DNA of 64,000 nt from Paenirhodobacter populi (GTDB lineage: Bacteria; Pseudomonadota; Alphaproteobacteria; Rhodobacterales; Rhodobacteraceae): assembly GCF_004022215.1 (NCBI RefSeq), contig NZ_SAUZ01000014.1, positions 1 to 64,000 on the forward strand, in the 5' to 3' direction. Within the stretch, counting starts at the first letter, position 1, and every line of letters begins with the position of its first letter. The notes beneath the pieces were generated by a model that saw only the letters and a program-made list of their open reading frames with translations, did not search any database and was not told where the DNA came from. The translations under genes and the position numbers were made by a program. This document shows positions 17,107 to 59,059 of the stretch, in pieces.

Positions 17107-17168
17107 CTTCATCTTTCCTCAAATATCCCGGGGTGAATTGGCCAAGGGCCAAGAGGGGCAGCGCCCCT
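17107..17168 (-). repeat. Dispersed 3'-end repeat, copy A (subtype II)
   Basis: Read on the minus strand it has an AGGGGC/GCCCCT hairpin, a variable hairpin TTGGCC-ctt-GGCCAA, then AATTCACCCCGGGATATTT and GGAAAGATGAAG. It lies downstream of rplA, beyond the terminator, on the same strand. Confidence 0.75.
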
Positions 17169-17236
17169 TCCGCCCCCGCCACCCGCGCCGCGATGCGGTC
17201 CTGAACCGCCCCCGCCCGTCTCAGGACCCCCAACGC

Positions 17237-17261
17237 AAAAGGGCGCGCCATCGGCGCGCCC
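17237..17261 (-). terminator. Intrinsic terminator after rplA
   Basis: Minus-strand stem GGGCGCGCC/GGCGCGCCC, perfect over nine pairs with a three-base CGA or GAT-like loop. It is followed by TTTT and lies 23 bp past the rplA stop. Confidence 0.8.
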
Positions 17262-17283
17262 TTCGCATTCATGCGATCGTCGA

Positions 17284-17979
17284 TCAGTTCGCCGTCGTCG
17301 TCAGGTCGAGCGTGACGCCCGGACCCATCGTCGAGGACAGCGAGACCTTCTTCACATAGGTGCCCTTGGCGCCGGTCGGCTTCGCCTTCGACACTGCCTC
17401 GACGAAGGCGCGGACGTTCTGCGCCAGCGCTTCCTCGGTGAACGAGACCTTGCCGATGCCGCCGTGGATCACGCCGGCCTTTTCGACCTTGAACTGCACT
17501 TCACCGCCCTTCGCGGCCTTGACCGCGTTGGCGACATCCATGGTCACCGTGCCGACCTTCGGGTTCGGCATCAGGTTGCGCGGCCCGAGGATCTTGCCCA
17601 GACGGCCGACCAGCGGCATCATGTCCGGCGTCGCGATGCAGCGATCGAACTCGATCTTGCCCGACTGGATGGTTTCCATCAGGTCTTCCGCACCGACGAT
17701 ATCCGCACCGGCTTCCTTGGCTTCGTCAGCCTTGGCGCCACGCGCGAACACGGCGACGCGGACGGTCTTGCCCGTGCCGTTCGGCAGCTGCACCACGCCG
17801 CGGACCATCTGGTCGGCGTAACGCGGGTCGACCCCGAGGTTCATGGCGATTTCCAGCGTCTCGTCGAACTTGGCCGAGGCGGAGGTCTTGATCAGCTTGA
17901 CAGCCTCTTCAACCGAGAGGTTGGTCTTGCCGTCGAAAGCGGCGCGCGCGGCGACCGTGCGTTTACCCAGCTTTGCCAT
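17284..17979 (-). CDS. rplA: 50S ribosomal protein L1
   Basis: This 231-aa L1 forms the mobile L1 stalk that guides deacylated tRNA out of the E site. The conserved block [20 protein letters not shown] is clear, as is the N-terminal [19 protein letters not shown]. It begins 3 bp after rplK, giving the standard rplKA pair, and ends at a strong terminator. In other bacteria L1 represses translation of rplKA by binding near the rplK start; no specific L1 site was searched for here. Confidence 0.98.
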
Positions 17980-17982
17980 GAC

Positions 17983-18435
17983 TTACCCCTTCACCTCGAT
18001 ACCGGCCGACTTGGCCGAACCCAGAATGATCTGCATCGCGGCTTCGATGTCGTTCGCGTTCAGATCCTTCATCTTGGCTTCGGCGATCTCGCGGATCTGC
18101 GCCACGGTCACCGTCCCGGCGGTTTCGTGGCCCGGCTTGACCGACCCTTTCGGACGGTTGCGCTTGCCGACCGGCTTCAGACCGGCGGCCTTCTTCAGCA
18201 TGAAGGAGGCGGGCGAGGTCTTCGTCTCGAAGGTGAACGACTTGTCGGCGTAATAGGTGATCACGACCGGAGTGGGCGTGCCCTGCTCCAGCTCCTGCGT
18301 GCGCGCGTTGAACGCCTTGCAGAATTCCATGATGTTGATCCCGCGCTGACCGAGCGCCGGGCCGACGGGCGGGGAGGGATTGGCTTGCCCCGCCTTGATT
18401 TGCAGCTTGAGCTGCCCGATTACTTTCTTGGCCAT
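17983..18435 (-). CDS. rplK: 50S ribosomal protein L11
   Basis: This 150-aa L11 belongs to the GTPase-associated centre and is needed for stringent-response signalling in well-studied bacteria. The conserved N-terminal region contains [19 protein letters not shown] and [15 protein letters not shown]. The C-terminal RNA-binding domain holds KSAGIEVKG at its end. It is slightly longer than the 142-aa E. coli protein because of a few extra residues before [15 protein letters not shown]. It is cotranscribed with rplA and preceded by nusG at a 90-bp gap containing a GC-rich palindromic stretch. Confidence 0.98.
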
Positions 18436-18525
18436 CTGGCCTTCTCCTTATCACTGCCGCCCGGATGCGGGCGAAGTTTAGCGGTCCGGCCCCGGTTTCC
18501 CGGGCACCTCCCGCGGCTCCTCACG

Positions 18526-19065
18526 TCAGGCGACTTTCGACACCTGGGTGAATTCCAGCTCGACCGGCGTCGGACGGCCGAAGATCGACACGGTGACCTT
18601 CAGGCGGCCCGCGGCCTCGTCGACCTCCTCGACCATGCCCGAGAAGCCCTCGAACGGGCCGTCGGTCACGCTCACATTCTCGCCGACCTCGTAACGGATC
18701 AGGTTGCGCGGGGCCGCGGCCTCGCCCGTTTCCGTGGTCCGGTTCAGCATCTGGTTCACTTCCGCGTCGCGCATCGGCGTCGGACGCCCCTGCGGGCCGA
18801 GGAACCCGGTGACCCGGTTGGTGGAGGTGATCAGGTGATACCCACGGTCGGTCATTTCCATCCGCACGAGCACATAGCCCGGCATGAAACGGCGCTCCGA
18901 GGTAACCTTCTTGCCACGCCGGATCTCGATCACTTCCTCGGTCGGGACCAGAACCTCCTCGATTTCATCCTCGAGGCCCTTCTCGTGCACGGACTGCCTG
19001 ATCTGCTCGGCCACCTTCTTCTCGAAGTTCGAGAGAACGCTCACCGAATACCAACGCTTCGCCAT
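18526..19065 (-). CDS. nusG: Transcription termination/antitermination factor NusG
   Basis: This 179-aa protein has the NGN domain (KRWYSVSVLSNFEKKVAEQI, then RRFMPGYVLVRMEMTDRGYH) and the C-terminal KOW domain (VGENVSVTDGPFEGFSGMVE). NusG binds the beta' clamp helices to suppress pausing, and links polymerase to Rho or ribosomal S10. It follows secE at a 162-bp gap, the usual secE-nusG-rplKA order. Length is normal. Confidence 0.98.
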   Translation of the reverse strand: MAKRWYSVSVLSNFEKKVAEQIRQSVHEKGLEDEIEEVLVPTEEVIEIRRGKKVTSERRFMPGYVLVRMEMTDRGYHLITSTNRVTGFLGPQGRPTPMRDAEVNQMLNRTTETGEAAAPRNLIRYEVGENVSVTDGPFEGFSGMVEEVDEAAGRLKVTVSIFGRPTPVELEFTQVSKVA

Positions 19066-19227
19066 GTCCTAGCCTCTTCCGTCCGGCCCGAGTGCCGAAG
19101 AATTTCAAGATTGCGCAAAGCAAACGACACCGTCACGCGAATCGACGCACGTGCCTTGCGAAAAAGTTTCGTCCCCTTAGCCTTCGCGGCCTGCCAATGC
19201 AAGCCCGCCGATGCAGGCTTCGGGGCC

Positions 19228-19410
19228 TCAGCCGATCAGCACGCCCACGCCCATGCGGATGATCCAGTCGACGATCGAGAAGAAGATCGCCGCCAGAGTC
19301 GCCATGACGAAGACCATCGCCGTGGTCAGCAGCACCTCGCGCCGCGTCGGCCAGGTGATCTTGCCGACTTCGGAGCGCACCTGCTGCAGGAACTGAACGG
19401 GGTTCGTCAT
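19228..19410 (-). CDS. secE: Preprotein translocase subunit SecE
   Basis: A 60-aa single-span SecE. The cytoplasmic segment NPVQFLQQVRSEVGKITWPT, with RREVLLTT after it, is the diagnostic amphipathic helix. The membrane helix is MVFVMATLAAIFFSIVDWII. It stabilises SecY in the SecYEG channel. Most alphaproteobacterial SecE proteins are this short form rather than the three-helix E. coli type. The start ATG is preceded by an AGAGGATCAG ribosome binding region. Its own promoter lies 30-58 bp upstream. Confidence 0.95.
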   Translation of the reverse strand: MTNPVQFLQQVRSEVGKITWPTRREVLLTTAMVFVMATLAAIFFSIVDWIIRMGVGVLIG

Positions 19411-19439
19411 CCTCTGATCCTCTTTCCCGAGATTGGCCC

Positions 19440-19468
19440 CAGATACGCGGTGCCCCGCCGCGTTTCAA
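19440..19468 (-). promoter_or_regulatory. Predicted promoter of secE-nusG
   Basis: TTGAAA (19463-19468) and TATCTG (19440-19445) are separated by 17 bp on the minus strand, 30 bp before the secE ATG. Confidence 0.5.
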
Positions 19469-19595
19469 GCACCAAAGGCCGTTTTCCGCACCGGCCCGGC
19501 ACCGGATAGGCCCCTGCAAAGGCGATTTTCGCGCGGGGCCGGAGGCGGACACCCCCCGGCGGACGCGCAGGATGCGCGAAAACGGCTTTAGGCCC

Positions 19596-19624
19596 TTGAC
19601 GCCCCACGGCGCATCGCATAGTGA
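19596..19624 (+). promoter_or_regulatory. Predicted promoter of the tRNA-Met gene
   Basis: TTGACG (19596-19601) and TAGTGA (19619-19624) are 17 bp apart on the plus strand. The predicted start is about 5 nt before the mature tRNA 5' end. Confidence 0.5.
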
Positions 19625-19635
19625 GCCGCCAGCGT

Positions 19636-19712
19636 GGCTAGGTAGCTCAGCAGGTTAGAGCACGTGACTCATAATCACGGGGTCGGGGGTTCGAGTCCCC
19701 CCCTCGCCACCA
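19636..19712 (+). tRNA. tRNA-Met (anticodon CAU)
   Basis: A 77-nt cloverleaf with encoded CCA. The D arm is GCTC...GAGC, the anticodon stem CGTGA/TCACG presents loop CTCATAA (anticodon CAT), and the T arm is GGGGG-TTCGAGT-CCCCC. The weak acceptor start and the loop fit an elongator Met or a lysidine-modified Ile tRNA better than the initiator. The acceptor stem GGCTAGG/CCTCGCC has a mismatch at pair 4-69 (U against C). Confidence 0.93.
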
Positions 19713-20367
19713 ATTCTCCTCAATGACTTAAGAGTAGTTTTTGAAGACGGGCTTTCACCCGCTTACAGGATGCGTTCCGCGTTCGTGCTTTCCCGGACGA
19801 TTCGAGAACGGGATTCGCCTCTCATCCAATGGCTCACCGCACCATGGGCAGACGCGCAGGATCCGCAACGTCCTTTCGCGATGCGGTCGCTGCCGCTCGG
19901 CACGGCCTATTCGATCTGGACGGGGATCGGCGCGGCGGGCGCCTTCGTCGTCGGGATCGTGGTGCTGGGCGAGGCGGTTTACCGACCAGCCCCGCGTCGA
20001 TCTGTCCCGACTTCTGTTTCGCCAACCCCAAAGGTCATGAACCCGGATTCGTCAGATCGGGAGCGTGCGGCCAGACGGGATCTCGAACCTGAAAGCGAAG
20101 TCCCTGACGACACGGCTGCAATCCGCGTCGCGGAGTTGCCCATAGAAAAGGCCAGGAATGACGCTCTGGCATCGAACCATGAGCAGCCCCCATCCTTGCT
20201 GCAATCATCAATGATCGACATCCGCGCGGCGCAATAGCCCCGGCATAGGCCTGCACGCCGCCTAGGAGGGAACGGCACGAACTCCCCTCGTCGCCAAGAC
20301 TGCGCCGTTCCGATTCGACGACCGCCCCGAAGGGTGGCACCGGACGGTCCGATTCCCGAATGAGGCG
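19713..20367. other. Gene-free mosaic stretch after the tRNA
   Basis: Of these 655 bp, only 19875-19980 has a recognisable origin (a copy of the SMR gene). The rest carries short frames on both strands with no family I recognise. Its composition is less biased than the neighbouring genes. A minus-strand frame at about 20050-20230 looks like degraded coding sequence but cannot be assigned. The setting next to a tRNA suggests past insertion and decay. No copy of the tRNA 3' end was found in it. Confidence 0.5.
19875..19980 (+). pseudogene. Fragment of an SMR efflux gene (106-bp exact duplicate)
   Basis: Every base of 19875-19980 matches the reverse complement of 16751-16856 inside the intact SMR gene. 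The fragment covers helix 3 and part of the next loop, from [16 protein letters not shown] to VLGEAV. It has no start of its own and its ends break abruptly into unrelated sequence. The lack of any substitution points to a recent copying event or gene conversion. It cannot make a functional transporter. Confidence 0.9.
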
Positions 20368-20973
20368 TCAGTAGACGGTGACTTCGGTTCCGATCGGCAC
20401 CGCATTGAACAGCGCGATCACATGATCGTTCACCATCCGCACACAGCCGTTCGAGACCGCATGCCCGATCGAGGCCGGTTCCGTCGTGCCGTGAATGCGA
20501 ATCGCCGTGTCGCGGCCGTTCTGATACAGATACAGCGCCCGCGCGCCCAAGGGGTTGGTGGGACCGCCCGGCATGCCGTCTTCGTATTTCTTGTAGGCGG
20601 CCGGGTTGCGCTCGATCATCTCGGGCGTGGGGCGCCAGCTCGGCCATTCGACCTTGCGCCCGACCACGGCCTTGCCACGGAATTTCAGCTCGTTCTTGCC
20701 GACGGCGACGCCGTAACGCATCGCCTTTCCGGGCGCGATGATGTGATAGAGAAAGAATTTCTCGGACACGATGATGATCGAGCCGACCCGAAGATCGGGC
20801 CGCACGTTCACTTCCGTCGGATAGTAGCGCCGGGCGATCGGCCATTCCTGCGGCGCGGGGGCCAGCGCGACCGGCGTGGCGGCGGGTCTGGCCGCGGTTT
20901 CCGACAATGCCAGTGCGGGGGATGCTCCGCAGGCCAGTGCTGCAAGAGCGGTCATCATGGTGCGACGGTTCAT
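20368..20973 (-). CDS. L,D-transpeptidase family protein (YkuD domain)
   Basis: This 201-aa exported protein starts with a signal peptide MNRRTMMTALAALACGASPA. The catalytic YkuD domain (about 60-201) carries IRIHGTTEPASIGHAVSNGC, with VRM following: the HGT and S-x-GC(V/I)R motifs hold the catalytic His and Cys. Such enzymes make 3-3 cross-links in peptidoglycan or attach outer-membrane proteins to it. A Pro-rich linker precedes the domain. It stands alone, with no operon partner, downstream of glpD on the same strand after a 245-bp gap without visible features. Confidence 0.92.
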   Translation of the reverse strand: MNRRTMMTALAALACGASPALALSETAARPAATPVALAPAPQEWPIARRYYPTEVNVRPDLRVGSIIIVSEKFFLYHIIAPGKAMRYGVAVGKNELKFRGKAVVGRKVEWPSWRPTPEMIERNPAAYKKYEDGMPGGPTNPLGARALYLYQNGRDTAIRIHGTTEPASIGHAVSNGCVRMVNDHVIALFNAVPIGTEVTVY

Positions 20974-21218
20974 CGCGGTCTCCGATATCCTGTTCGGGGA
21001 AGGCTAACAAAGCGCATCCCGGGTCTCAATCGCCGAACGCCATGGTCCGGCAGAAATCTTAATGTTTTCCCGGCCAAAGCCCGGATTTCGCCCGTTCCGT
21101 CAGCGGCGGGCCGCATCCGGACGGGGCAGACCGGCAACCCCCGACCCCGGGCACGGGTTCCCGCAGCGCCCCCGCCGGGATCCGCGCCGCCGCCCCGAGC
21201 GGCGCGGACCTGTGCTCA

Positions 21219-22832
21219 TCAGCCCGGCGAGCCGGAAGAAGCCCGTCTTGCCGGACCCGCCACCGCCTGACCGGCCAGTTCCGCCACCACGAAATCCCCG
21301 ACCGCCGCCCGCGCCGCGACATCCAGATGCAGGCCGGTCTTGGTGCGCCGCCACAGCACGTCCTCGCCGCTGCGCGCCCATTCCCGGTCGATCTGCCAGC
21401 GGATCTCGGCCGCCGTCAGCGTCGCGCCGAAATCCTGCCCGAGGTCGGCGGCCCGCGCCGCATCGCCCAGCCAGAGGCGCGCCTCGGTCCCGTAGGTGCG
21501 GATCAGCCGCGCGGCCCATGCGGGCGTCAGGAACGGATAGTCGCGTGTCAGACCCTGCGCCAGATCCGCCCCGCCGCCCACCGGGAATGCCCCGCCCGGC
21601 AGGGCGACATCCGCCGTCCACGCCGCCGTCGCCTGCGGAAAGAACCGCCCCAGCTTTTCCAGCGCATGTTCCGCCAGCCGCCGGTAGGTGGTGATCTTGC
21701 CGCCGAAGATGTTCAGCAGCGGCGCCCCGCCGTCATCCAGCCGCAGCACATAGTCCCGCGTCGCCGCCGTGGCCGAACGCGCCCCGTCATCATAGAGCGG
21801 CCTGACCCCGGAATAGGTCCAGACCACATCGGCGGGCGTCACCGGCCGGGCGAAATAGCGCGACACGAAATCGCACAGATAGCGCTGCTCCTCGGGTGTG
21901 CAGGCGACGGCGGCGGGATCGCCGTGGTAATCGTTGTCGGTGGTGCCGATCAGGGTGAAGTCCTGCTCATAGGGAATGGCAAAGCAGATCCGCCCGTCCG
22001 GCCCCTGAAAGAAATAGGCGCGGTCATGATCGAACAGGCGCCGCGTGACGATGTGGGAGCCGCGCACCAGCCGCACGCCTTCCTTCGAGGGCACATGGAT
22101 CGTGTCATGGATGACCTCGCCGACCCAGGGGCCCGCCGCGTTGACAAGCGCCCGCGCCCGGAAGGTGCCGGCCGTGGTCTCGATCCGCCACAGGCCATCC
22201 TCGCGATGCGCGGCGTTCACCTGCGTCCGGGTCATGATCCGCGCGCCCCGCGCCGCCGCGTCGCGGGCGTTCAGCACGACAAGCCGCGCGTCATCCACCC
22301 AGCCGTCGGAATATTCATAGGCGAGCCGCAGATCCCCGCGCAGCGCCGCCCCCGCCGGATCGCGCCGCAGGTCCAGCCTCCGCGTTCCGGGCAGCAGCTT
22401 CCGCCCGCCCAGATGGTCGTAAAGGAACAGCCCCGCCCGGATCACCGCCGCCGGACGCCGCCCCTTGAGAAAGGGCAGCATCCGCCCGACGGGCGTGTTC
22501 GTCGGAAACCGCATGGACGGGTCCATCGGCAGCACAAACCGCATCGGACGGCTGATATGCGGATTGGCGCGTAGCAGGATTTCGCGCTCTTCCAGCGCCT
22601 CGCGCACCAGCCGGATTTCCAGATATTCCAGATAGCGCAACCCGCCGTGGAACAGCTTGGTCGAGGCCGAAGAGGTCGCCTGCGCCAGATCCCCCTTTTC
22701 GCACAGCAGGACCGACAGCCCCCGGCCCGCCGCATCGCGGGCGATGCCGCAGCCGTTGATGCCGCCGCCGATGATGAAAAGATCCGCGGGATGTTCCGCC
22801 GTGCCCGCCTGCGACGCCTGTGTATCTGCCAT
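21219..22832 (-). CDS. glpD: Aerobic glycerol-3-phosphate dehydrogenase
   Basis: This 537-aa FAD flavoprotein oxidises sn-glycerol 3-phosphate to dihydroxyacetone phosphate and passes electrons to ubiquinone at the inner membrane. The N-terminal FAD fold is DLFIIGGGINGCGIARDAAG. DPSMRFPTNTPVGRMLPFLK and the TSSASTKLFHGGLRYLE region are typical of GlpD. The C-terminal DAO_C domain ends in an Ala/Gly-rich tail. The ATG is preceded by GGAGACC. No glpR, glpF or glpK is adjacent, so its control by glycerol is not visible from context. Confidence 0.95.
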   Translation of the reverse strand: MADTQASQAGTAEHPADLFIIGGGINGCGIARDAAGRGLSVLLCEKGDLAQATSSASTKLFHGGLRYLEYLEIRLVREALEEREILLRANPHISRPMRFVLPMDPSMRFPTNTPVGRMLPFLKGRRPAAVIRAGLFLYDHLGGRKLLPGTRRLDLRRDPAGAALRGDLRLAYEYSDGWVDDARLVVLNARDAAARGARIMTRTQVNAAHREDGLWRIETTAGTFRARALVNAAGPWVGEVIHDTIHVPSKEGVRLVRGSHIVTRRLFDHDRAYFFQGPDGRICFAIPYEQDFTLIGTTDNDYHGDPAAVACTPEEQRYLCDFVSRYFARPVTPADVVWTYSGVRPLYDDGARSATAATRDYVLRLDDGGAPLLNIFGGKITTYRRLAEHALEKLGRFFPQATAAWTADVALPGGAFPVGGGADLAQGLTRDYPFLTPAWAARLIRTYGTEARLWLGDAARAADLGQDFGATLTAAEIRWQIDREWARSGEDVLWRRTKTGLHLDVAARAAVGDFVVAELAGQAVAGPARRASSGSPG

Positions 22833-23011
22833 GTCCGGTCTCCTGTCCCGGCGAGTGGTGCGCGCCGCGCATCACTTGTCAAACGAAGTTTCGCGGCGCC
22901 CTTCCGCCGCCCTGTCGGCGAGTCTCCGCCGACAGGAAAAGCACGGACTTTGCCCATCGGATCACCGCCTGTATGCCTTTGCGCCAAAGGGACAGTGGAG
23001 AAAACTCCAGG

Positions 23012-23485: not shown

Positions 23486-23522
23486 TCTTGCTGGAATCCG
23501 GAATCGCGGGCGGATGGGGCGC

Positions 23523-23584
23523 AGGGGGCGCTGCCCCCTCGCCCGTTCCGGGCTCACCCCCGGGATATTTTGGGAAAGATGAAG
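23523..23584 (+). repeat. Dispersed 3'-end repeat, copy B (subtype I)
   Basis: AGGGGGC/GCCCCCT hairpin, second hairpin GCCCG-ttc-CGGGC, then TCACCCCCGGGATATTTT and GGAAAGATGAAG. It begins 38 bp past the stop of the lytic transglycosylase gene, same strand, in the gap before a convergent gene. Confidence 0.8.
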
Positions 23585-23620
23585 AACAGAAGGGGTGCGC
23601 GGGGATTTTGACCCGCGCCC

Positions 23621-32279: not shown

Positions 32280-32341
32280 AGGGGGCCAGCCCCCTCGCCC
32301 GTTCCGGGCTCACCCCCGGGATATTTATGGAAACACGAAAG
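32280..32341 (+). repeat. Dispersed 3'-end repeat, copy C (subtype I)
   Basis: AGGGGGC-ca-GCCCCCT hairpin, GCCCG-ttc-CGGGC hairpin, TCACCCCCGGGATATTTATG, then GAAACACGAAAG. It starts 37 bp past the hemE stop on the same strand and is almost identical to copy I. Confidence 0.85.
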
Positions 32342-32369
32342 CCATCAAGGCCTCGGTTGAGAGATCGGC

Positions 32370-32794: not shown

Positions 32795-32859
32795 CTTCAT
32801 TCTTCCATAAATATCCCGGGGGTGAATTCGCTGAAAGCGAAGAGGGGGCTGGCCCCCTT
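32795..32859 (-). repeat. Dispersed 3'-end repeat, copy D (subtype II)
   Basis: On the minus strand: AGGGGGC-ca-GCCCCCT hairpin, TTCGCT-ttc-AGCGAA hairpin, TTCACCCCCGGGATATTTAT, GGAAGAATGAAG. It begins about 4 nt past the stop of the DEAD-box helicase gene, same strand. Confidence 0.85.
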
Positions 32860-36259: not shown

Positions 36260-36320
36260 AGGGGGCCAGCCCCCTCGCGCGTTCCGCGCTCACCCCCGGG
36301 ATATTTATGGAAAGATGAAG
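36260..36320 (+). repeat. Dispersed 3'-end repeat, copy E (subtype I)
   Basis: AGGGGGC-ca-GCCCCCT hairpin, then GCGCG-ttc-CGCGC (both arms changed relative to copies B, C and I), TCACCCCCGGGATATTTATG, GAAAGATGAAG. It lies 25 bp past the stop of the lipoprotein gene, same strand. Confidence 0.85.
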
Positions 36321-36455
36321 ACATAAGCATGCCGGTTTCGTGATGGCGACGCGAAAAATGCCATATGGGGGCGGCTGCCGTTGGCAGGTGGATCCGGTGC
36401 CGGGCCCGGAAGCTTTGCAGAGACAGGAAGGGTTCTGCCCGGGGTGTTCGTGCCG

Positions 36456-46293: not shown

Positions 46294-46345
46294 GTGGGGG
46301 CTGTCTGCCCCCACACCCCCGAGGATATTTATGGAAGAATGAAAG
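46294..46345 (+). repeat. Dispersed 3'-end repeat, copy F (variant without the second hairpin)
   Basis: GTGGGGG and CCCCCAC pair around GCTGTCTG-like loop sequence, then CACCCCCGAGGATATTTATG and GAAGAATGAAAG. The middle variable hairpin is absent. It starts 10 bp past the class III alcohol dehydrogenase stop, same strand. Confidence 0.7.
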
Positions 46346-46392
46346 GCAAAACCTGCCAGCCGTCGTTTTCCATGAGTATTTTGGGGCATGAG

Positions 46393-46518
46393 GCGGATCA
46401 GGCAGCCTTCCAGAGGCAGGATGCCCCGCCGAATGCGGATCAGGCAACCTGCCGGTGGAAGGATGCCCCGCCGGATGTGGATCGGGCGGCCTTCCGACAC
46501 GAGAATGCACCGCCGAAT
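46393..46518. repeat. Three tandem copies of a 42-bp unit
   Basis: Three units of exactly 42 bp (46393-46434, 46435-46476, 46477-46518). Units 1 and 2 differ at about eight of 42 positions; unit 3 is less alike. Each begins GCGGATCAGG-like and ends GATGCCCCGCCGAAT-like. Because 42 is a multiple of three, open frames pass through on both strands (a 14-residue DAPPNADQA-type repeat on the plus strand). There is no good start or ribosome binding site, so I do not call a gene. Confidence 0.8.
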
Positions 46519-46560
46519 GCCGCCGGGACGGGCGGGCAGTGTCCCCGCGCCGTCCGCCGG

Positions 46561-48803: not shown

Positions 48804-48966
48804 AGGCTCCGGTCACTGGGCGCTTCGCGCCTTCCCCGAACCTAGCGCCGCTGGCGGCGGGCGCAATGCCGTGCGAGGGGCCGGATTGATGCTGCGGATG
48901 CAAAATTCACTCGCACCCGCGCCCGCAGCGGCCTATCTACGGAAAACCGATCCACAGGAGACAGCG

Positions 48967-49617: not shown

Positions 49618-49646
49618 TCCGCGCCCGAACACGCCGGCATCTGTTG

Positions 49647-49712
49647 CTTTCATCTTTCCGCAAATATCCCGGGGGTGAATTTGCCGTCAGGCAAAGAGGG
49701 GGCTGGCCCCCT
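49647..49712 (-). repeat. Dispersed 3'-end repeat, copy G (subtype II)
   Basis: On the minus strand: AGGGGGC-ca-GCCCCCT hairpin, TTTGCC-tgac-GGCAAA hairpin, TTCACCCCCGGGATATTTGC, GGAAAGATGAAAG. It begins 40 nt past the stop of the DUF4139 gene, same strand. Confidence 0.85.
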
Positions 49713-49752
49713 CCCTCCCCAACCGCCCGCACCGGACGTTGTGGATCCGCGC

Positions 49753-51315: not shown

Positions 51316-51428
51316 CTGATCCTCCTGGAATTGCCCGGAGGGTCGCCTTGCGGGCGGGGAAAGGCAAGCTCTGTCGCCCCACACCGGCCTCACAGCTGCG
51401 TCAGACGGGCACGCGCGCATTCCGCGCG

Positions 51429-51492
51429 ATGACCTTCCACTGGAGGGTCATCTGATCCACCTCATCCCAAGACATTCATGGAAACAAGAAAG
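51429..51492 (+). repeat. Degenerate relative of the dispersed 3'-end repeat (copy J)
   Basis: An ATGACC...GGTCAT hairpin is followed by CCCAAGACATTCATGGAAAC and AAGAAAG, resembling the conserved tail with substitutions. No plus-strand gene precedes it. It lies in the 313-bp gene-free gap 51316-51628, which otherwise holds only copy H. Confidence 0.35.
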
Positions 51493-51557
51493 CCCGAAAA
51501 TCCGTTTCCGGCATGCGCTCACGCAACACGCTTCAAAGGCACCTGAACGCCTTTTGG

Positions 51558-51622
51558 CTTTCATTCTTCCATAAATATCCCGGGGGTGAATTTCCCGGAG
51601 GGAAAGAGGGGGCTGGCCCCCT
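51558..51622 (-). repeat. Dispersed 3'-end repeat, copy H (subtype II)
   Basis: On the minus strand: AGGGGGC-ca-GCCCCCT hairpin, TTTCCC-tcc-GGGAAA hairpin, TTCACCCCCGGGATATTTAT, GGAAGAATGAAAG. It begins 6 nt past the asd stop, same strand. Confidence 0.85.
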
Positions 51623-51628
51623 CCTTCT

Positions 51629-52651: not shown

Positions 52652-52719
52652 CTTGGACCTCCATGCTCAAAGCAGGCCGCGCATAGCGGAAAAGCCGGGA
52701 TTTGGGAAGGGATTCTCTG

Positions 52720-53337
52720 TCAATTCACGCGGATGATGCGCGAATCCCGCCCCATCAGGTCAAAGACGTAGCGCGCCTCGGCGGAAAAGTCGTGCGGCAC
52801 CTGCTCCGCCGTGCGATGCCCGGAGAGCGAAAGCGAGGCGAAGAAGTCGAAACCGAACAGCGTCAGCCCCGCCATGTCCGAGCGCGAAAACAGGTCGATC
52901 AGCATCGCCCCGGTGGTCGGCTGCGCCCCGATCCGGGCCTTGAGCGCCCGGTAATCCGCCAGCGGATGCAGATAAAAGCCGGGGCTCGTCGCCGTGTCCC
53001 AATCCAGCCGCTTGCGCTTATGGCTCATCCACAGGATACGCGCCGGGTGCAGCCGGGCACGTTCCGCCGCATCGAGCCGCACCGCCAGCGCCAGCCAGTC
53101 CGTGCGCAGCCCGTGGCTTTCGGGCGAAGGCATCGGCGCGCGGTTGATCCGCACCACGAGGTCATGGGCGTCGATCTCGGCCCCGTGCATCGTATCGGCC
53201 AACGCGCGCGCATTGCCGACCAGCGCCACCCGCCTGCCCGCCAGATCGGCCAGCAGATCGGCCTGCGGCACCGACAGCGCGGCCAAGGGTGCTTCCTGCC
53301 GCAGCGTGCGCGCGAGGTAAAAGCCCAGCCGGTTCAT
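52720..53337 (-). CDS. GT29 (sialyltransferase-motif) family-like protein
   Basis: This 205-aa protein has RRVALVGNARALADTMHGAE and DAHDLVVRINRAPMPSP, which resemble the L-motif of GT29 sialyltransferases (V-G-N-x...D-x-V-x-R-x-N). TTGAMLIDLFSRSD and LTLFGFDFF further match, and HDFSAEARYVFDL carries a C-terminal His. Bacterial members lie in polysaccharide loci, and their true donor sugar is usually not known. It is coupled by ATGA to the GT4 gene downstream. A role in capsule or LPS outer core decoration is likely. Confidence 0.75.
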   Translation of the reverse strand: MNRLGFYLARTLRQEAPLAALSVPQADLLADLAGRRVALVGNARALADTMHGAEIDAHDLVVRINRAPMPSPESHGLRTDWLALAVRLDAAERARLHPARILWMSHKRKRLDWDTATSPGFYLHPLADYRALKARIGAQPTTGAMLIDLFSRSDMAGLTLFGFDFFASLSLSGHRTAEQVPHDFSAEARYVFDLMGRDSRIIRVN

Positions 53338-54368
53338 CCCAGCAGCCCGCGATAGATGCGCACCAGTGCCGCCGCCTCGTCCTCGATACGGAAATGCGTC
53401 TCGACATGGGCGCGGGCGGCGACGGAGGCTTCTTCCAGCCGCGCCGGATTATCAAGGAAGGGCGCACAGGCCGCGGCCAGCGCCGGAACGTCGCCGGGTT
53501 CCACCAGCGCGCCCGCCCGCGGCGTCACGATCTCCTCGAAGGCGCCGACGCGGGTCGCCACCACCGGCACGCCGCAGGCCATCGCCTCGATCGGGGTCAG
53601 GCCGAAACCCTCCCACCGCTGCGGCGCCACATACAGGTCCAGCACCCGATACCAGTCGGCCATGCGATCGACCGGCACCTCGGGCGGAAAAAGGATGCGG
53701 TCCTCCAGCCCCTCGGCCTTCACCTTCGCCTTCAGCCCGTCGAGGAAGGCGCCCTGCCCCTCGGTCGCGCGGCCCATGACCAGCGCGGTGACGCCGGGCC
53801 GCGTCCGCAGCAGCTGGATCATCGCGTCGACGAAGGCATCCGTGCCCTTCTGCGCGCGGATGCGGCCATAGCAGCCGACCAGCAGCCCGCCGGGCAGGCC
53901 AAGCCGCGCCCGCAGTTCTGCGCGATCGCCGGGCGGGGTGAAGGTCTGCGTGTCGATCCCGTGGTGGATCACCGTCGAGGGCCGGTCGAGATAGGATGCC
54001 GTCTTGGCCGAGGTCGACACCACCGCATCCATCCGCGAAATCAGCCATTTGGTATAGCCCGTATGCCGCCGCTGGCTGGCCGAGGTGAACAGCAGTTTCA
54101 ACGGCATGCCGCTTGCGCGCAGTGCCAGCCCCAGCAGCATTTCCGTATTGCGCCGCGCGTGCCAGACCCGCAACCGGCGCGGCAAGAACCGCAGCCGCCA
54201 GACCGGCACATGCGGCAGCTCCGCGGGCAATCCGGGGCCGGTCGTGACGATGCCGATCATCCGCGCCTGCACCGGCACCAGCCGCACGATGGTGGCCGTC
54301 ACGCCCGACAGGCGGCGCTTCAGGTTGGGGGCGATGACCTCGATGGGATCGGGAAGGTTCTGGCTCAT
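53334..54368 (-). CDS. GT4 glycosyltransferase, LPS-core type
   Basis: This 344-aa GT-B enzyme has the C-terminal Glycos_transf_1 domain with VGCYGRIRAQKGTDAFVDAM and the donor-binding EGFGLTPIEAMACGVPVVA (E-x7-E). It resembles rhizobial LPS core mannosyl- or galactosyltransferases of the LpcC/LpsB type. The ATG at 54368 is chosen; upstream reading would pass into the modE region. It is cotranscribed with the GT29-like gene and divergent from modE over 100 bp. Confidence 0.88.
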   Translation of the reverse strand: MSQNLPDPIEVIAPNLKRRLSGVTATIVRLVPVQARMIGIVTTGPGLPAELPHVPVWRLRFLPRRLRVWHARRNTEMLLGLALRASGMPLKLLFTSASQRRHTGYTKWLISRMDAVVSTSAKTASYLDRPSTVIHHGIDTQTFTPPGDRAELRARLGLPGGLLVGCYGRIRAQKGTDAFVDAMIQLLRTRPGVTALVMGRATEGQGAFLDGLKAKVKAEGLEDRILFPPEVPVDRMADWYRVLDLYVAPQRWEGFGLTPIEAMACGVPVVATRVGAFEEIVTPRAGALVEPGDVPALAAACAPFLDNPARLEEASVAARAHVETHFRIEDEAAALVRIYRGLLG

Positions 54369-54468
54369 GCCCTCGTGTCTAGCGCGCCGCCGGGCGATTG
54401 TCTCGTGCGAAGCGCGGCCCTTGCCCCCGCCGCCGCGCTGCGACAGGATGACCGGCAAGGAGTGACCG

Positions 54469-54888
54469 ATGGACCTGACCCGCACCACATTGAGGCTCTA
54501 TTTCGGCAAGCTGGTCTTCGGCCCCGGCAAGGCCGACCTGCTCGAGGCGATCGACAGCGAAGGCTCGATCTCCGCCGCCGGGCGCCGCATGGGGATGAGC
54601 TACAAGCGCGCCTGGAGCCTTGTCGAGGAAATGAACACCTGTTTCGAAACGCCGCTGGTCGAATCCGCGCGCGGGGGCGCGCATGGCGGCGGCGCCCATC
54701 TGACCGATGCCGGGCGCGCCGTGCTGGCCGATTACCGGGCGCTGGTGTCGATCCTGCTGACGGACGGCGCGGCGCGCATCGCCGCCATCGGCGCGCGCGT
54801 CGGCGGGGCACAGGCCGGGGGCGCGCAGGTTGAAGGATCACAGGTTGACGACTCTCAGGCCGAAGGCGATGTGGCCCAACAGAAATAG
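54469..54888 (+). CDS. ModE-like molybdate-responsive regulator, DNA-binding domain only
   Basis: This 139-aa protein has the winged helix of ModE: GKADLLEAIDSEGSISAAGR, then RMGMSYKRAWSLVEEMNTCF and GAHLTDAGRAVLADY. E. coli ModE has two additional molybdate-binding Mop domains (262 aa); here only a 35-residue low-complexity tail (GAQAGGAQVEGSQVDD) follows. It may sense molybdate through another protein or act differently. It precedes modABC (69-bp gap with a ModE-box-like dyad). Rhodobacter capsulatus has related regulators (MopA/MopB). Confidence 0.85.
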   Translation: MDLTRTTLRLYFGKLVFGPGKADLLEAIDSEGSISAAGRRMGMSYKRAWSLVEEMNTCFETPLVESARGGAHGGGAHLTDAGRAVLADYRALVSILLTDGAARIAAIGARVGGAQAGGAQVEGSQVDDSQAEGDVAQQK

Positions 54889-54911
54889 CGCTTGCGACGG
54901 CAGGGCGCGGG

Positions 54912-54936
54912 CGGCTATGTTTCGCCGGACATATCG
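54912..54936. promoter_or_regulatory. ModE-box-like inverted repeat upstream of modA
   Basis: TATGT and ACATA face each other across TTCGCCGG, within CGGCTATGT...ACATATCG. This recalls the CG-TATAT...ATATA-CG layout of Mo boxes. It is 21 bp before the modA ATG and could be a site for repression by molybdate. Confidence 0.4.
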
Positions 54937-54956
54937 TTTCGGGAGACCTTGATCCA

Positions 54957-55700
54957 ATGCGTATCGCACCCCTGTCCTTCGGCCTGATGCTGGCCCTGTC
55001 CACGCCGGTTCTGGCGGATCCGGTGATCTTCGCCGCCGCCTCGCTGAAGACCGCGCTGGATGAGATCGCCACCGATTTCACCGCCGAAAGCGGGGTGAAG
55101 CCGCTGATTTCCTATGACGGCTCGGGCGCACTCGCGAAACAGATCCTGGCCGATGCGCCGGCGGACATGTTCATCTCGGCCGCGACGGACTGGATGGATC
55201 AGGTCGAAAAGGCCGAATACATCCTGCCCGGCACGCGCGAGGATTTTCTGGGCAACACGCTCGTGCTGATTTCCGACAAGGCCGATCCGGTCGAAATCGC
55301 CGATCTGCCCGAAAAGCTCGGCTCCGAGCATATCGCGATGGGGCTGCTCGATTCCGTGCCCGCCGGCCAGTATGGCAAGGCCGCGCTGACCCATCTGGGC
55401 CTGTGGGAGAAGATCGAGCCGCAGGTGGCGCAGGCGCAGAACGTGCGCGCGGCGCTGGCCCTCGTCGCCTCGGGCGAGGCGCCCTACGGCATCGTCTACA
55501 AGACCGACGCCGCGGCCGAGCCCAAGGTCCATGTCGTCGCGACCTTCCCGGAAGGCAGCTACCCGGCCATCACCTATCCGATCGCGCTGCTCAAGGCCGG
55601 TCCCGATGCCGAAGGCGCCAAGGCCTTCTACGACTATCTGACCACGCCGAAGGCGACCGCCCTTCTGGAACAGCAGGGTTTCGAGATCCTCAAGAAGTAA
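54957..55700 (+). CDS. modA: Molybdate ABC transporter substrate-binding protein
   Basis: This 247-aa periplasmic protein has a signal MRIAPLSFGLMLALSTPVLA. The mature part reads VIFAAASLKTALDEIATDF, with Ser residues that bind the oxyanion, and has KADPVEIADLPEK and YPIALLKAGPDAEGAKAFYD. ModA captures molybdate or tungstate. It is followed 10 bp later by modB. It is a full-length typical family member. Confidence 0.95.
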   Translation: MRIAPLSFGLMLALSTPVLADPVIFAAASLKTALDEIATDFTAESGVKPLISYDGSGALAKQILADAPADMFISAATDWMDQVEKAEYILPGTREDFLGNTLVLISDKADPVEIADLPEKLGSEHIAMGLLDSVPAGQYGKAALTHLGLWEKIEPQVAQAQNVRAALALVASGEAPYGIVYKTDAAAEPKVHVVATFPEGSYPAITYPIALLKAGPDAEGAKAFYDYLTTPKATALLEQQGFEILKK

Positions 55701-55710
55701 GCAAGACGGC

Positions 55711-56409
55711 GTGGACAATATCCTCAGCCCGGATGAATGGACGGCGCTGATGCTGTCGCTCAAGGTCTCCACCATCGCGGTGGGGGCCTCTTTGCCGTTG
55801 GGCGTCTGGGTCGCGGCGCTGCTGGCGCGGTCGAACATGCCGGGGCTGTGGATCGTCAATGCGATCGTCCATCTGCCGCTGATCCTGCCGCCCGTCGTCA
55901 CCGGCTATGCGCTGCTTTTGACCTTCGGGCGCAGGGGCTTCATCGGCCAGTATCTGGATCAATATCTGGGCTTCACCTTCGCCTTCCAATGGACCGGGGC
56001 GGCGCTGGCGGCGGCGGTGATGAGCTTCCCGCTCATGGTCCGCGCCATCCGTCTGGCGATCGAGGCGGTGGACCCCAAGCTGGAACACGCGGCCTCGACC
56101 CTCGGCGCCTCGCGGATCGAGGTGTTCTTCACCGTGACGCTACCCCTGATCCTGCCCGGGGTCATCGCCGGGATGATCCTTGCCTTCGCCAAGGCGATGG
56201 GGGAATTCGGCGCGACGATCACCTTCGTCTCGAACATCCCGGGGCGGACGCAGACGCTGCCCTCCGCGATCTATTCGTTCCTGCAGGTGCCGGGGGCCGA
56301 GCTGCAGGCCGCCCGCCTTGCCGGGATTTCCGTCGTGGTGGCGGTGGGGGCGCTTGTCATCTCGGAATTCGTCGCACGGCGGGTGGCGAAGCGGATCGGG
56401 GGCGCGTGA
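55711..56409 (+). CDS. modB: Molybdate ABC transporter permease
   Basis: This 232-aa inner membrane protein with about five helices starts at GTG. The EAA loop reads EHAASTLGASRIEVFFTVTL, preceding the Gly that contacts ModC. The LPLILPPVVTGYALLLTFGR region is typical for ModB. It forms the channel of the ModABC importer. The TGA stop overlaps the ATG of modC (TGATG). Confidence 0.95.
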   Translation: MDNILSPDEWTALMLSLKVSTIAVGASLPLGVWVAALLARSNMPGLWIVNAIVHLPLILPPVVTGYALLLTFGRRGFIGQYLDQYLGFTFAFQWTGAALAAAVMSFPLMVRAIRLAIEAVDPKLEHAASTLGASRIEVFFTVTLPLILPGVIAGMILAFAKAMGEFGATITFVSNIPGRTQTLPSAIYSFLQVPGAELQAARLAGISVVVAVGALVISEFVARRVAKRIGGA

Positions 56410-57485
56410 TGCTCGAAGTCTCGCTGCGCCACGATTTCGGCAGCTTTTCCGTCGATGTCGATTTCACCGCGCCCAAGGGGGTGACGGCACTGTTCGGCGC
56501 CTCGGGCGCGGGGAAGACCACGGTCGTCAACGCCGTCGCCGGGCTGTTCCGCCCCGCGCAAGGCCGCATCACCGCCGAGGGTGTCACGCTGTTCGACACC
56601 GACAAACACATCAACCTGCCGCCGCGCAAGCGCCGCGTGGGCTATGTGTTTCAGGAGCCCCGGTTGTTTCCGCATATGTCGGTGCGGTCGAACCTGCTCT
56701 ATGGCGCGCGGTTCGCGCCGCGCGATGCGACGGGGCCGGATTTCGACGCGGTGATCGGCATGCTGGGCATCGGCGCGCTGCTCGACCGACGGCCGGGGGC
56801 GCTGTCGGGCGGGGAAAAGTCGCGCGTCTCGCTTGGCCGGGCGCTGCTGTCGAAACCGCGGATGCTCTTGATGGACGAACCGCTTGCGGCGCTCGATGCG
56901 CCGCGGCGGGAGGAGATCCTGCCCTTCCTCGAATCCCTGCGCGATGCCGGAATGCCGGTGCTGCTGGTCAGCCATTCGATCGCCGAGGTGGCGCGGCTCG
57001 CCTCGACCGTGGTGCTGCTGTCGAAGGGGCGCGTCATCGCCTCGGGTCCGACGGGGGAAATCCTGTCCGATCCGGCGCTGGCGCCGCGCTTCGGCGCGGG
57101 CGAGGCGGGGGCGATCATCACCGCGCACACCGCCGGGCGCGATGCCGACGGGCTCATCCGGTTGGAAACGGCGGGCGGTCCGGTCTGGGTGACCGACGCG
57201 CCCGAGGCGGCCCATCTGCGCCTGCGGATCCAGGCCTCGGACGTGATCCTGTCGCGCGAGGCGCCGGCGGGCCTTTCCGCGCTGAACGTGCTCACCGGCA
57301 CCATCCGCCGGATCGAGGAAGAGGCCGACGGCCGGGCCTTCGTCCAGATCGCCATCGGCGATGAGGCGATCCTGTCGCGCGTCACCCTGCGATCCGTGCG
57401 GGCGCTTGGCCTTGCGCCGGGCGTCGCCTGCCATGCCATCGTGAAATCGGTGGCGGTCAGCCGCGACGATCTGGCGGAAATCTGA
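56409..57485 (+). CDS. modC: Molybdate ABC transporter ATP-binding protein
   Basis: This 358-aa ATPase has Walker A GASGAGKTT, Q-loop VGYVFQEPRLFPHMSV, signature ALSGGEKSRVSLGRALL, Walker B LLMDEPLAALD and H-loop VSHSIAEVARL. The C-terminal part (about 290-358) is a TOBE/Mop domain (LSALNVLTGTIRRIEEEADG) that can bind molybdate and regulate activity. It completes modABC. A GC-rich stem 9 bp past the stop, with its T run on the minus strand, marks the gap to the convergent heat-shock gene. Confidence 0.95.
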   Translation: MLEVSLRHDFGSFSVDVDFTAPKGVTALFGASGAGKTTVVNAVAGLFRPAQGRITAEGVTLFDTDKHINLPPRKRRVGYVFQEPRLFPHMSVRSNLLYGARFAPRDATGPDFDAVIGMLGIGALLDRRPGALSGGEKSRVSLGRALLSKPRMLLMDEPLAALDAPRREEILPFLESLRDAGMPVLLVSHSIAEVARLASTVVLLSKGRVIASGPTGEILSDPALAPRFGAGEAGAIITAHTAGRDADGLIRLETAGGPVWVTDAPEAAHLRLRIQASDVILSREAPAGLSALNVLTGTIRRIEEEADGRAFVQIAIGDEAILSRVTLRSVRALGLAPGVACHAIVKSVAVSRDDLAEI

Positions 57486-57489
57486 CACG

Positions 57490-57516
57490 AAAAAGGGCGC
57501 GGGAAATCCCGCGCCC
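57490..57516 (-). terminator. Intrinsic terminator between modC and the heat-shock gene
   Basis: Perfect nine-pair stem GGGCGCGGG/CCCGCGCCC with a four-base loop. Read on the minus strand it is followed by TTTTT, so it should end the small heat-shock gene transcript; it may also serve modC. Confidence 0.8.
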
Positions 57517-57541
57517 GGCACCATTTACTTCAGACCAACAC

Positions 57542-58045
57542 TCAGGCCTGAACAGGTTCGGCGGCCTCGGCCGGCTTCGCCTCGACGGATTTGGCCTCGA
57601 CGGGTTGGGCTTCGACAGCCTTGCCCCCGGAGATCTCGATCCGGCGCGGTTTCAGCGCCTCGGGCACTTCGCGGACAAGGTCGATATTCAGCATACCGTC
57701 CTCATGCGAGGCCCCCGTGACCTTCATGTGATCGGCGAGCGCGAACCGGCGTTCAAACGCACGGGTGGCGATGCCGCGATGCAGGAAGGTCTTGTCCTCG
57801 ACCTCTTCGGTCTTGCGACCTGTCACGATCAGCGCACCGTCCTTCAGATCGACCGACAGTTCATCCGAGCCGAAGCCCGCAACGGCGATCGAAATGCGAT
57901 AGCCGTTTTCCGCTGTCTTCTCGATGTTGTAGGGCGGATAGGTGGGTTGCGCGAGGTCCGCGGACAGGGCACGATCCATCAGGTCGGCGACACGGTCAAA
58001 GCCGACGGTAGCGCGATAAAGCGGCGAGAAATCAAAAGTACGCAT
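57542..58045 (-). CDS. Small heat-shock protein (Hsp20/IbpA family)
   Basis: This 167-aa chaperone starts MRTFDFSPLYRATVGFDRVA, like IbpA. The alpha-crystallin domain (about 40-135) has PPYNIEKTAENGYRISIAVA, FLHRGIATRAFERRFALADH and DGMLNIDLVREVPEALKP. It holds aggregating proteins for DnaK/ClpB refolding. An acidic Ala/Glu/Pro tail with VEAQPVEAKSVEAKPAEAAE repeats ends the protein. The ATG at 58045 is preferred because AGAGG lies 9 nt upstream; another at 58054 has none at proper spacing. A sigma32-like promoter and a ROSE-like hairpin precede it. Confidence 0.93.
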   Translation of the reverse strand: MRTFDFSPLYRATVGFDRVADLMDRALSADLAQPTYPPYNIEKTAENGYRISIAVAGFGSDELSVDLKDGALIVTGRKTEEVEDKTFLHRGIATRAFERRFALADHMKVTGASHEDGMLNIDLVREVPEALKPRRIEISGGKAVEAQPVEAKSVEAKPAEAAEPVQA

Positions 58046-58050
58046 GGTTT

Positions 58051-58099
58051 TCATCCTCTTGGAGCGATGACATTGCGCCCTCCCCATCCGGGGCAGGGC
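58051..58099 (-). promoter_or_regulatory. ROSE-like RNA thermometer before the Hsp20 gene
   Basis: The last leader hairpin (58051-58070, minus strand) is UCAUC, a bulged G, CUC, loop CAA, then GAGGAUGA. The GAGG ribosome binding site is paired opposite UCGCU, which matches the ROSE consensus UYGCU with its bulged G. A second hairpin (58077-58099) is GCCC(U)...CCCC-ggau-GGGG...GGGC. ROSE elements repress small heat-shock genes at normal temperature and melt on warming. Confidence 0.65.
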
Positions 58100-58140
58100 A
58101 TGGTTTCCACCGGGACCCGTAGCGGCATCCCGATGACTGG

Positions 58141-58170
58141 AATCTGGGAAGCACCGGGCCTGCTTTCAAG
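58141..58170 (-). promoter_or_regulatory. Sigma32-type (RpoH) promoter of the Hsp20 gene
   Basis: CTTGAAA (58164-58170) and CCCAGATT (58141-58148) on the minus strand, with 15 bp between them, fit the CTTGAAA-N(13-17)-CCCATnT pattern. The leader would be about 90 nt. Confidence 0.6.
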
Positions 58171-58266
58171 ATATTCGCAAGGGAGGATGCGAAATTTCGG
58201 ATCTTCTCGCAGCCGGTTCCCGGCTGTATCAGGGGCGAAACCGCCGCCCTCCCCCAATCCGGTTCC

Positions 58267-58977
58267 GTGATGACCTATCTGACCTCTTTCCACCTCGGCC
58301 CGCTGGGGCCTGCCGATCTTGGGGCGCTCATCGCGCTCGTCTCCGCCTGGCTCTGGATCGGCTGGCTGACGGAGCATCCGCCCAAGCACCGCAACTCCGT
58401 CGGCAAGCTGATGGAGGCCTATCGCCGCGAATGGATGCGCCAATTGGTCACCCGGCAGCCGCGGCTGTTCGACGGGCAGATGGTGGACGGGTTGCGGCAG
58501 TCGACGACCTTCTTCGCCTCGACCGCGCTGATCGCCATCGGCGGCGGGCTGGCGCTGATCGGCAATCCCGAGCAGATCACCGATCTGGCGCAGGAATTCG
58601 CCATCGCCTCGGGGCCGAAGCTGTTGTGGGAAACGCGGATCCTGACGGCGGTGATGTTCGGCGCCAACGCCTTCCTGAAATTCGTCTGGTCGCACCGGCT
58701 GTTCAGCTATGCGGCGATCGTCATGGCTTCGGTGCCGAACGATGCGTCGGACCCGCTGGCCTATCCGCGCGCTGCCCAGGCCGCGCGGGTCAACATCAAC
58801 GCCGCGAAAAGTTTCAACCGCGGGCTCCGGTCGGTCTATTTCGCGCTGGCCTCGCTCGCCTGGCTTCTGGGGCCGGAAATGCTGTTCGCGGCGACGGTCT
58901 TTACCACCGGGATGCTGTGGCGGCGCGAATTCGCCTCGGTCGCGCGGAGGGCGCTGCTGGACAATCCGCCGAAGTAG
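58267..58977 (+). CDS. DUF599 membrane protein
   Basis: This 236-aa protein has about four helices: DLGALIALVSAWLWIGWLT, STTFFASTALIAIGGGLALI, the AVMFGANAFLKFVW region, and a last pair at SVYFALASLAWLLGPEMLFA. The DUF599 family is widespread in alphaproteobacteria with no known role. RREWMRQLVTRQPRLFDGQM is a conserved cytoplasmic loop. Start may be GTG 58267 or ATG 58270. It is divergent from the heat-shock gene and followed by repeat copy I. Confidence 0.85.
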   Translation: MMTYLTSFHLGPLGPADLGALIALVSAWLWIGWLTEHPPKHRNSVGKLMEAYRREWMRQLVTRQPRLFDGQMVDGLRQSTTFFASTALIAIGGGLALIGNPEQITDLAQEFAIASGPKLLWETRILTAVMFGANAFLKFVWSHRLFSYAAIVMASVPNDASDPLAYPRAAQAARVNINAAKSFNRGLRSVYFALASLAWLLGPEMLFAATVFTTGMLWRREFASVARRALLDNPPK

Positions 58978-58997
58978 GGCCGGGCGGAGAGGGCGGC

Positions 58998-59059
58998 AGG
59001 GGGCCAGCCCCCTCGCCCGTTCCGGGCTCACCCCCGGGATATTTATGGAAACACGAAAG
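58998..59059 (+). repeat. Dispersed 3'-end repeat, copy I (subtype I)
   Basis: AGGGGGC-ca-GCCCCCT hairpin, GCCCG-ttc-CGGGC hairpin, TCACCCCCGGGATATTTATG, GAAACACGAAAG. It starts 20 nt past the DUF599 stop on the same strand and matches copy C over its full length. Confidence 0.85.

Follow-up and report, generated by a model that had tools for sequence, protein, structure and literature searches.

A dispersed gene-end element in Paenirhodobacter populi and other Rhodobacteraceae, read as a possible short intrastrand-triplex motif

The question raised by a 64,000-nucleotide (nt) stretch of the Paenirhodobacter populi genome (assembly GCF_004022215.1, contig NZ_SAUZ01000014.1, positions 1 to 64,000; the window below) is what the structured elements are that recur in it just past stop codons. 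An examination of its letters alone (the sequence-only reading) had taken nine of them for a selected RNA structure at the 3' ends of mRNAs. We compared these elements with others in the same genome (the host) and in its relatives. Read 5' to 3', an element consists of a first hairpin (hairpin 1: a G run, a short loop and a C run), a turn, a second C run (the tail C run), GGG, and an AT- and purine-rich tail of approximately RTATTTNNRSMARRAWGAAR. The comparison shows this anatomy, along with matched run lengths, a mirror geometry, placement at gene ends and the absence of a fixed polarity, and we infer from it that the element may form a triplex and have a function. The reading that we prefer, with a probability of roughly 0.45, is that of a short intrastrand-triplex motif at gene ends, possibly a two-way 3'-end boundary, across the Rhodobacteraceae. 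The more far-reaching form of this proposal, a natural triple-helix element whose run lengths co-vary over dozens of genera and which serves as a direction-independent transcription boundary at gene ends in much of the family, is tentative and on the whole doubtful.

In some elements the turn is short (mostly 3 or 7 nt); in others, as usually in the host, it contains a second hairpin (hairpin 2) that varies in sequence and is nearly perfect in its pairing. Other forms lack hairpin 2 or carry an additional long hairpin. Across these forms the sequence-only reading had overlooked that the length of the tail C run is coupled to that of the G run in hairpin 1. This matching of the G run, the C run and the tail C run appears to be new. 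The hairpin-1 run equaled the tail C run in 118 of the 123 parsed host elements (shuffle mean 99.8, maximum 107; 20,000 shuffles) and in 23 of 31 from another member of the genus, G003 (shuffle mean 10.1, maximum 20; 20,000 shuffles); hits with an unparsable hairpin or C run (12/135 in the host, 20/51 in G003) were left out. When one locus was taken per genome, C4 tails had a 4/4 hairpin in 24 of 30 cases and C6 tails a 6/6 hairpin in 18 of 30, and another 80 C4 tails, taken from 18 genomes, included 69 with a 4/4 hairpin. Pooling 200 loci, less 6 without a hairpin or match and the duplicates, gave 190 elements from 42 genomes, and in 163 of them all three runs were equal (4, 5 or 6). The C4 and C6 sets had been picked by tail length, a choice for which a within-genome shuffle allows: the 22 genomes in which more than one tail length occurs gave agreement in 112 of 131 elements, against 71.9 expected and a shuffle maximum of 91. 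By turn length, agreement was 41/47 and 54/59, and 68/84 where the turn held hairpin 2. The arms of facing pairs may differ (6 and 5), each arm being self-consistent, and one locus (L369) has a 5-5-5 unit followed by a 4-4-4 unit.

A second regularity concerns the turn, and was analyzed in 149 short-turn elements preselected for equal runs, a set that bears on the turn and not on the run rule. The linker was one nt shorter than the stem extension in 120 of them (2 bp with 1 nt in 81, 4 bp with 3 nt in 38, 5 bp with 4 nt in 1). Purine extensions of the stem were mirrored in the tail block in 45 of 50 cases (GA to CT in 42, GAGA to CTCT in 2, GGA to CCT in 1). The third block thus mostly mirrors the pyrimidine arm, in register with the purine arm; the length part of this pattern is strong, and the sequence part comes down to few independent changes. 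A mirrored register is what a third strand along the hairpin needs, whereas a block competing for the G run by Watson-Crick pairing would have to be a direct repeat. Since the linker is mirrored, we rejected such Watson-Crick pairing between G run and tail, although it would account for the lengths.

The core of the proposed structure would be a purine arm (G run, n = 4-6), a loop, a pyrimidine arm of the same n, the turn, and a C run of the same n as third block. On the C-rich strand, the third block would lie along the hairpin in C.G-C triads (class III, R-Y-H); on the G-rich strand, the alternative would be G.G-C triads (class I, rH-R-Y). The G-rich form seems the likelier, because it would not need acid and because the A before the C run in the common host form would be accepted as T.A-T. 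Either would most probably form in transiently single-stranded DNA. As a two-way boundary, the element might stop transcription or set transcript ends from either side. We propose this role because either orientation of the element presents the layout and because its favored sites are convergent gene ends, a preference that the role would explain.

The best reading of the comparison with known systems is that the closest kind is the bacterial intrastrand-triplex repeats (ITxF motifs; TM-ECO/BoxC), of which the element would be a short-stem variant (Holder et al. 2015, PMC4666352, here and below as described in the parts cited). Like these repeats, it has three blocks per strand (a purine arm, a pyrimidine arm and a Hoogsteen or reverse-Hoogsteen block), is dispersed and intergenic with no clear strand bias, often occurs in inverted pairs, and differs greatly in copy number between close relatives. 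As in ITxF motifs, the third block obeys Hoogsteen or reverse-Hoogsteen rules (lengths in 163/190; mirror in 45/50, with few independent changes). Unlike TM-ECO, which has 9-nt stems, pairs class II with class III on the complement and lies more often upstream of open reading frames (ORFs), our elements have runs of 4-6, pair class III with class I on the complement, lie at gene 3' ends, often hold a hairpin in the second loop and have a conserved tail (PMC4666352). The coupling of length and register is not described for ITxF repeats in the parts of that paper cited here. Most of our stems, at 4 or 5, fall outside the limits of the ITxF search (stem 6-15 nt, loops 1-6 nt; PMC4666352), and a turn that holds hairpin 2 or measures 7 nt is too long for the loop; copies with runs of 6 and a short turn are the only ones that would lie within the limits. 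The TM-ECO/BoxC pattern itself, CCCTCNCCC-loop-GGGNGAGGG-N3-GGGNGAGGG in class II order, differs by inspection in both sequence and block order.

Several observations weigh against an intrastrand triplex with a boundary role. Runs of 4-6 are short, the run rule is broken in 27 of the 190 elements, and the C6 set holds 5/5 hairpins in 5 of its 30 members. By strict counting, 29 of the 149 short-turn elements lie outside the linker-stem rule; 5 of the 50 purine extensions have no mirror (2 of these 5 fit the G-rich-strand form), and since 42 of the 50 show the same GA/CT, few independent changes stand behind the mirror rule. According to the same parts of PMC4666352, the C-rich triplex form prefers acid, dimethyl sulfate footprinting of the E. 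coli TM-ECO in vivo gave no detectable stable triplex, and earlier work found TM-ECO without promoter or terminator activity. Canonical terminators occur in 23 of 69 convergent gaps with an element and in 9 of 29 without, and in tandem gaps they are commoner with an element (9/42) than without (20/256). Finally, the element is not essential, because genomes of the genus carry anywhere from 7 to 324 copies.

Hairpin 2 had supplied part of the case for an RNA, its paired changes having been read as selection at the RNA level. The changes themselves were borne out: in 13 distinct host copies of the same length, the share of cells that pair is 96.9%, against a mean of 66.9% after shuffling, the covariation score reaches 0.651 versus 0.151 in shuffled copies, 0 of 500 shuffles matched either value, and no change is one-sided. 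There are 32 distinct stems in 115 host copies, with 614 of 618 pairs Watson-Crick. By pair type, we counted 606 Watson-Crick, 2 G-T and 1 A-C in the host, and 702 Watson-Crick, 9 G-T, 12 A-C and 6 others in relatives. In an RNA helix kept on this strand, G-U is expected well above A-C. With G-U intermediates nearly absent and in no excess over A-C, the changes in hairpin 2 are therefore no pointer to RNA. The pairing indicates a cause at the level of DNA, or mutation of a kind that keeps palindromes free of mismatches; alternatively, a hairpin 2 so poor in G-U may belong to a young RNA family. Single-copy RNA folding energies in the window were mostly unremarkable (z -2.3 to +0.7), and RNAalifold on a MAFFT alignment of the nine copies did not recover hairpin 2, because its length varies among copies.

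Taken further, the mutational explanation would dispense with selection for a triplex: template switching or slippage in hairpins would perfect the stems and copy the run lengths. Hairpin 2 is near-perfect with hardly any intermediates, as such homogenization would have it, and the two C runs are direct repeats on either side of the turn. However, homogenization alone does not predict a linker that grows with the stem and mirrors it, nor the coupling of runs across hairpin 2 (68/84), and we consider it very unlikely.

In 1.158 Mb of the host, with genes called here and in relatives by our own codon-model finder, we placed 137 of 139 hits, dropping two at contig ends: 80 were convergent, 28 tandem on the same strand, 22 tandem on the opposite strand, 7 divergent, and none inside predicted genes. 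Among gaps of 60-900 nt, an element was present in 69 of the 98 between convergent genes, in 42 of the 298 between tandem genes and in 7 of the 153 between divergent genes. Location at gene 3' ends, as first described, is thus well founded, with a strong preference for convergent gaps. Of 120 loci in other relatives, 52 lay in convergent gaps, 31 in tandem gaps on the same strand and 19 on the opposite strand, 5 in divergent gaps, 4 inside predicted genes and 9 at edges. In 0.4 Mb of G003, 28 elements were convergent, 13 tandem on the same strand and 10 on the opposite strand, 2 divergent and 2 inside genes; many of these form facing pairs, which are counted once each way.

The accompanying claim, that every element lies on the strand of the gene before it, did not survive. 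Seven of the nine copies are in convergent gaps, where either orientation qualifies, leaving only copies A and H informative, and a degenerate plus-strand copy that had been missed (~51417-51492) is opposite to both of its neighbors. A genome-wide lack of strand bias had been named as grounds for giving up the RNA reading. Host tandem gaps gave 28 same versus 22 opposite (p = 0.48), those of relatives 31 versus 19, and the two pooled 59 versus 41 (p = 0.089). A weak same-strand bias is possible; it is not a rule. Neither 28:22 nor 31:19 resembles a 3'-untranslated-region (3'-UTR) RNA element that keeps to the strand of its upstream gene. For 13 of the 22 opposite host copies, a well-scoring ORF on the other strand ends 26-165 nt beyond the tail; another opposite copy (contig C1, 208134) has a plausible same-strand ORF upstream, and one (contig C2, 46821) looks like a chance match.

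A selected sense-strand structure at mRNA 3' ends, acting in processing, stability or as a 3'-UTR-derived RNA, would agree with the position just past stop codons, the covariation in hairpin 2 and the weak same-strand excess (59 versus 41). RNase E cuts at the consensus RN/WUU, which the AU/AUU of the tail fits. In R. sphaeroides, RNase E sites are AU-enriched, which favors the model, and only ~2% of them lie in 3' UTRs, which speaks against it (PMC6238624, in the parts cited). With a polarity that is not fixed and no excess of G-U over A-C, we regard this model as improbable.

Hairpins past stop codons, mainly in convergent gaps, could also be ordinary intrinsic terminators with a weak U tract (AUAUUUAU), and in the orthologous asd and hemE gaps the place of the host element is taken in relatives by what looks, on visual inspection, like a hairpin followed by a T-rich stretch. 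The likeness ends there. The element has no T run; GGG stands between the C run and the AT stretch (in the equal-run set, the hairpin is followed by GGG and ATATTT, 146/149 matching GGGATATTT), so that the sequence-only reading was right to set it apart from the standard U-tract terminator. Sequence blocks are conserved far beyond what a terminator needs, and T-run terminators coexist with the element, being equally frequent with or without it. An intrinsic terminator is in our view a highly improbable explanation. The idea that the element replaces canonical terminators is not supported either, as the two coexist. Directly after the hemE stop codon, 8 of 17 relatives have the tail motif without the G/C blocks, followed by an ordinary terminator.

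The element is, to judge by its sequence, dispersed at gene 3' ends across much of the Rhodobacteraceae. The tail pattern CACCCCCGGGATATTTNNGGAA at ≤3 mismatches has 358 matches in the 4.78-Mb host genome (182 plus, 176 minus) and its reversed control none, which shows that the nine copies are real. The view that these are structured and not random repeats is upheld. At ≤2 mismatches, all 18 genomes of the genus had it, with 7 to 324 copies each, and it was found in 77 of 198 genomes sampled from the family, or 76 of 197 genera; named genomes listed with the tail include Paenirhodobacter enshiensis, Rhodobacter capsulatus, R. maris, Marimonas lutisalis and Rhodalgimonas zhirmunskyi. The tail motif at ≤1 mismatch occurs 2 to 272 times per genome in genus members (G002, G003 and others), in two subclasses, RCCAAGAARAAR and GGCAAGATRAAR, often as facing pairs, which in G003 are often 26-29 bp apart. 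A search of genome contigs with a long exact pattern gave no match, and a shorter pattern at least 76 stretches. Among plasmids, two records were retrieved, neither of them annotated. A replichore-oriented motif was considered and dropped when fuller genus data showed facing pairs. Limited searches of the open-access literature turned up no description recognized as this element or as a Rhodobacter repeat family. In contig C1 of G003, two loci (A:42472 and B:55788, script coordinates) show yet another architecture, in which a long GTCGTCCAT/ATGGACGAC hairpin separates hairpin 1 from the tail.

Such abundance invites the main rival explanation, a neutral or selfish mosaic repeat like the repetitive extragenic palindromes and bacterial interspersed mosaic elements (REP/BIME) associated with RAYT transposases, which would persist only at sites where its cost is low, namely at 3' ends and not near promoters. 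Like these palindromic extragenic repeats, the element has hundreds of copies (358 tail matches; 0/137 inside predicted genes) and mosaic modules, with few copies near promoters; it avoids genes and divergent gaps, and its copy number is labile within the genus (7 to 324). The tail end has four main discrete variants in the host (AAAGATGAA, AAACACGAA, AAGAATGAA and AAAAACGAC) that are only weakly associated with hairpin 2 (mutual information 0.571, shuffle mean 0.483, 70/5,000 shuffles). Hairpin 2 is strongly associated with the hairpin-1 loop (0/5,000 shuffles), a pattern consistent with reassorting modules, and a rare element is present twice with different flanks (contig C4, 104220 and 121140). 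On the other side, no match to the Y1 (RAYT-type) transposase PF01797 was found in the host (a draft of 91 contigs), in a search aimed at Y1 alone that was positive in 5 of 14 control genomes. Unlike REP/BIME, the core is shared by many genera and its third block is coupled to the hairpin; a neutral repeat needs neither a tail in 76 of 197 genera nor a run rule that crosses them. We judge this explanation unlikely. The Rhizobium intergenic mosaic elements (RIME), reportedly alphaproteobacterial intergenic elements with two palindromes, resemble our element by that description only.

In the window, all nine copies (A to I) were found where they had been described. They were not the complete family, however, as two degenerate copies had been overlooked:

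17107..17166, minus strand: copy A; runs 4-4-4; flanked by rplA and the guanidine-II/SMR gene; tandem, same strand.
23523..23588, plus strand: copy B; runs 5-5-5; hairpin 2 GCCCG/CGGGC; convergent gap.
32280..32342, plus strand: copy C; runs 5-5-5; 3' of the hemE-containing ORF; convergent gap shared with copy D.
32795..32858, minus strand: copy D; runs 5-5-5; hairpin 2 TTCGCT/AGCGAA; 3' of a DEAD-box helicase gene; faces copy C.
36260..36322, plus strand: copy E; runs 5-5-5; hairpin 2 GCGCG/CGCGC; convergent gap.
46294..46348, plus strand: copy F; single hairpin GTGGGGG/CCCCCAC, then a second C5; no hairpin 2; 3' of a class III alcohol dehydrogenase gene; convergent gap.
~46355-46521 (approximate), minus strand: degenerate copy of the long-hairpin form; ~3 tandem 42-nt hairpin units and a decayed tail; faces copy F; convergent gap.
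49647..49709, minus strand: copy G; runs 5-5-5; hairpin 2 TTTGCC/GGCAAA; convergent gap.
~51417-51492, plus strand: degenerate copy of the long-hairpin form; tail CATCCCAAGACATTCATGGAAACAAGAAAG; opposite to both neighbors, which are minus-strand genes.
51558..51621, minus strand: copy H; runs 5-5-5; hairpin 2 TTTCCC/GGGAAA; 7 nt past the asd stop codon; tandem, same strand.
58998..59060, plus strand: copy I; runs 5-5-5; hairpin 2 GCCCG/CGGGC; convergent gap.

The shared G5/C5 hairpin ascribed to all nine is present in eight, copy A having G4/C4; the tail is in all nine and hairpin 2 in eight, being absent from copy F. The distance of 4-40 nt from the stop codon applies, as 4-41 nt to the start of the G run, to eight copies, and is ~117 nt for copy A. 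Three tandem 42-nt repeats at 46393-46518 are copies of the long hairpin unit of the degenerate element facing copy F. Window genes were likewise called with our own finder, and 15 window ORFs were checked against protein families.

Rfam at gathering thresholds gave three matches in the window, none overlapping an element. At 16677-17063 on the minus strand, one of them, a guanidine-II riboswitch (36.2 bits, gathering score 32), precedes a gene of the small multidrug resistance (SMR) family (PF00893); the gene lies between rplA and rplJ, with copy A just upstream of the riboswitch. Another is a Rhodo-rpoB RNA upstream of rpoB (15242-15335, minus strand; 63.9 bits). A perfect 106-nt inverted repeat (16751-16856 and 19875-19980) joins the SMR gene to an ORF at 19770-20237 with a partial SMR match, and is either a recent partial duplication or an assembly artefact.

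Intrastrand-triplex repeats have been known from sequence patterns and test-tube folding, and the relevance of the third strand in cells has been in doubt. Here, in many genera, the third block changes length with its hairpin, and this speaks, by comparison, for the three-block layout itself being kept. Direct tests could draw on the matched sets that the family offers naturally (runs of 4, 5 and 6; mirror extensions). A boundary role, if the element has one, would be part of the explanation for the insulation of convergent gene ends in these bacteria.

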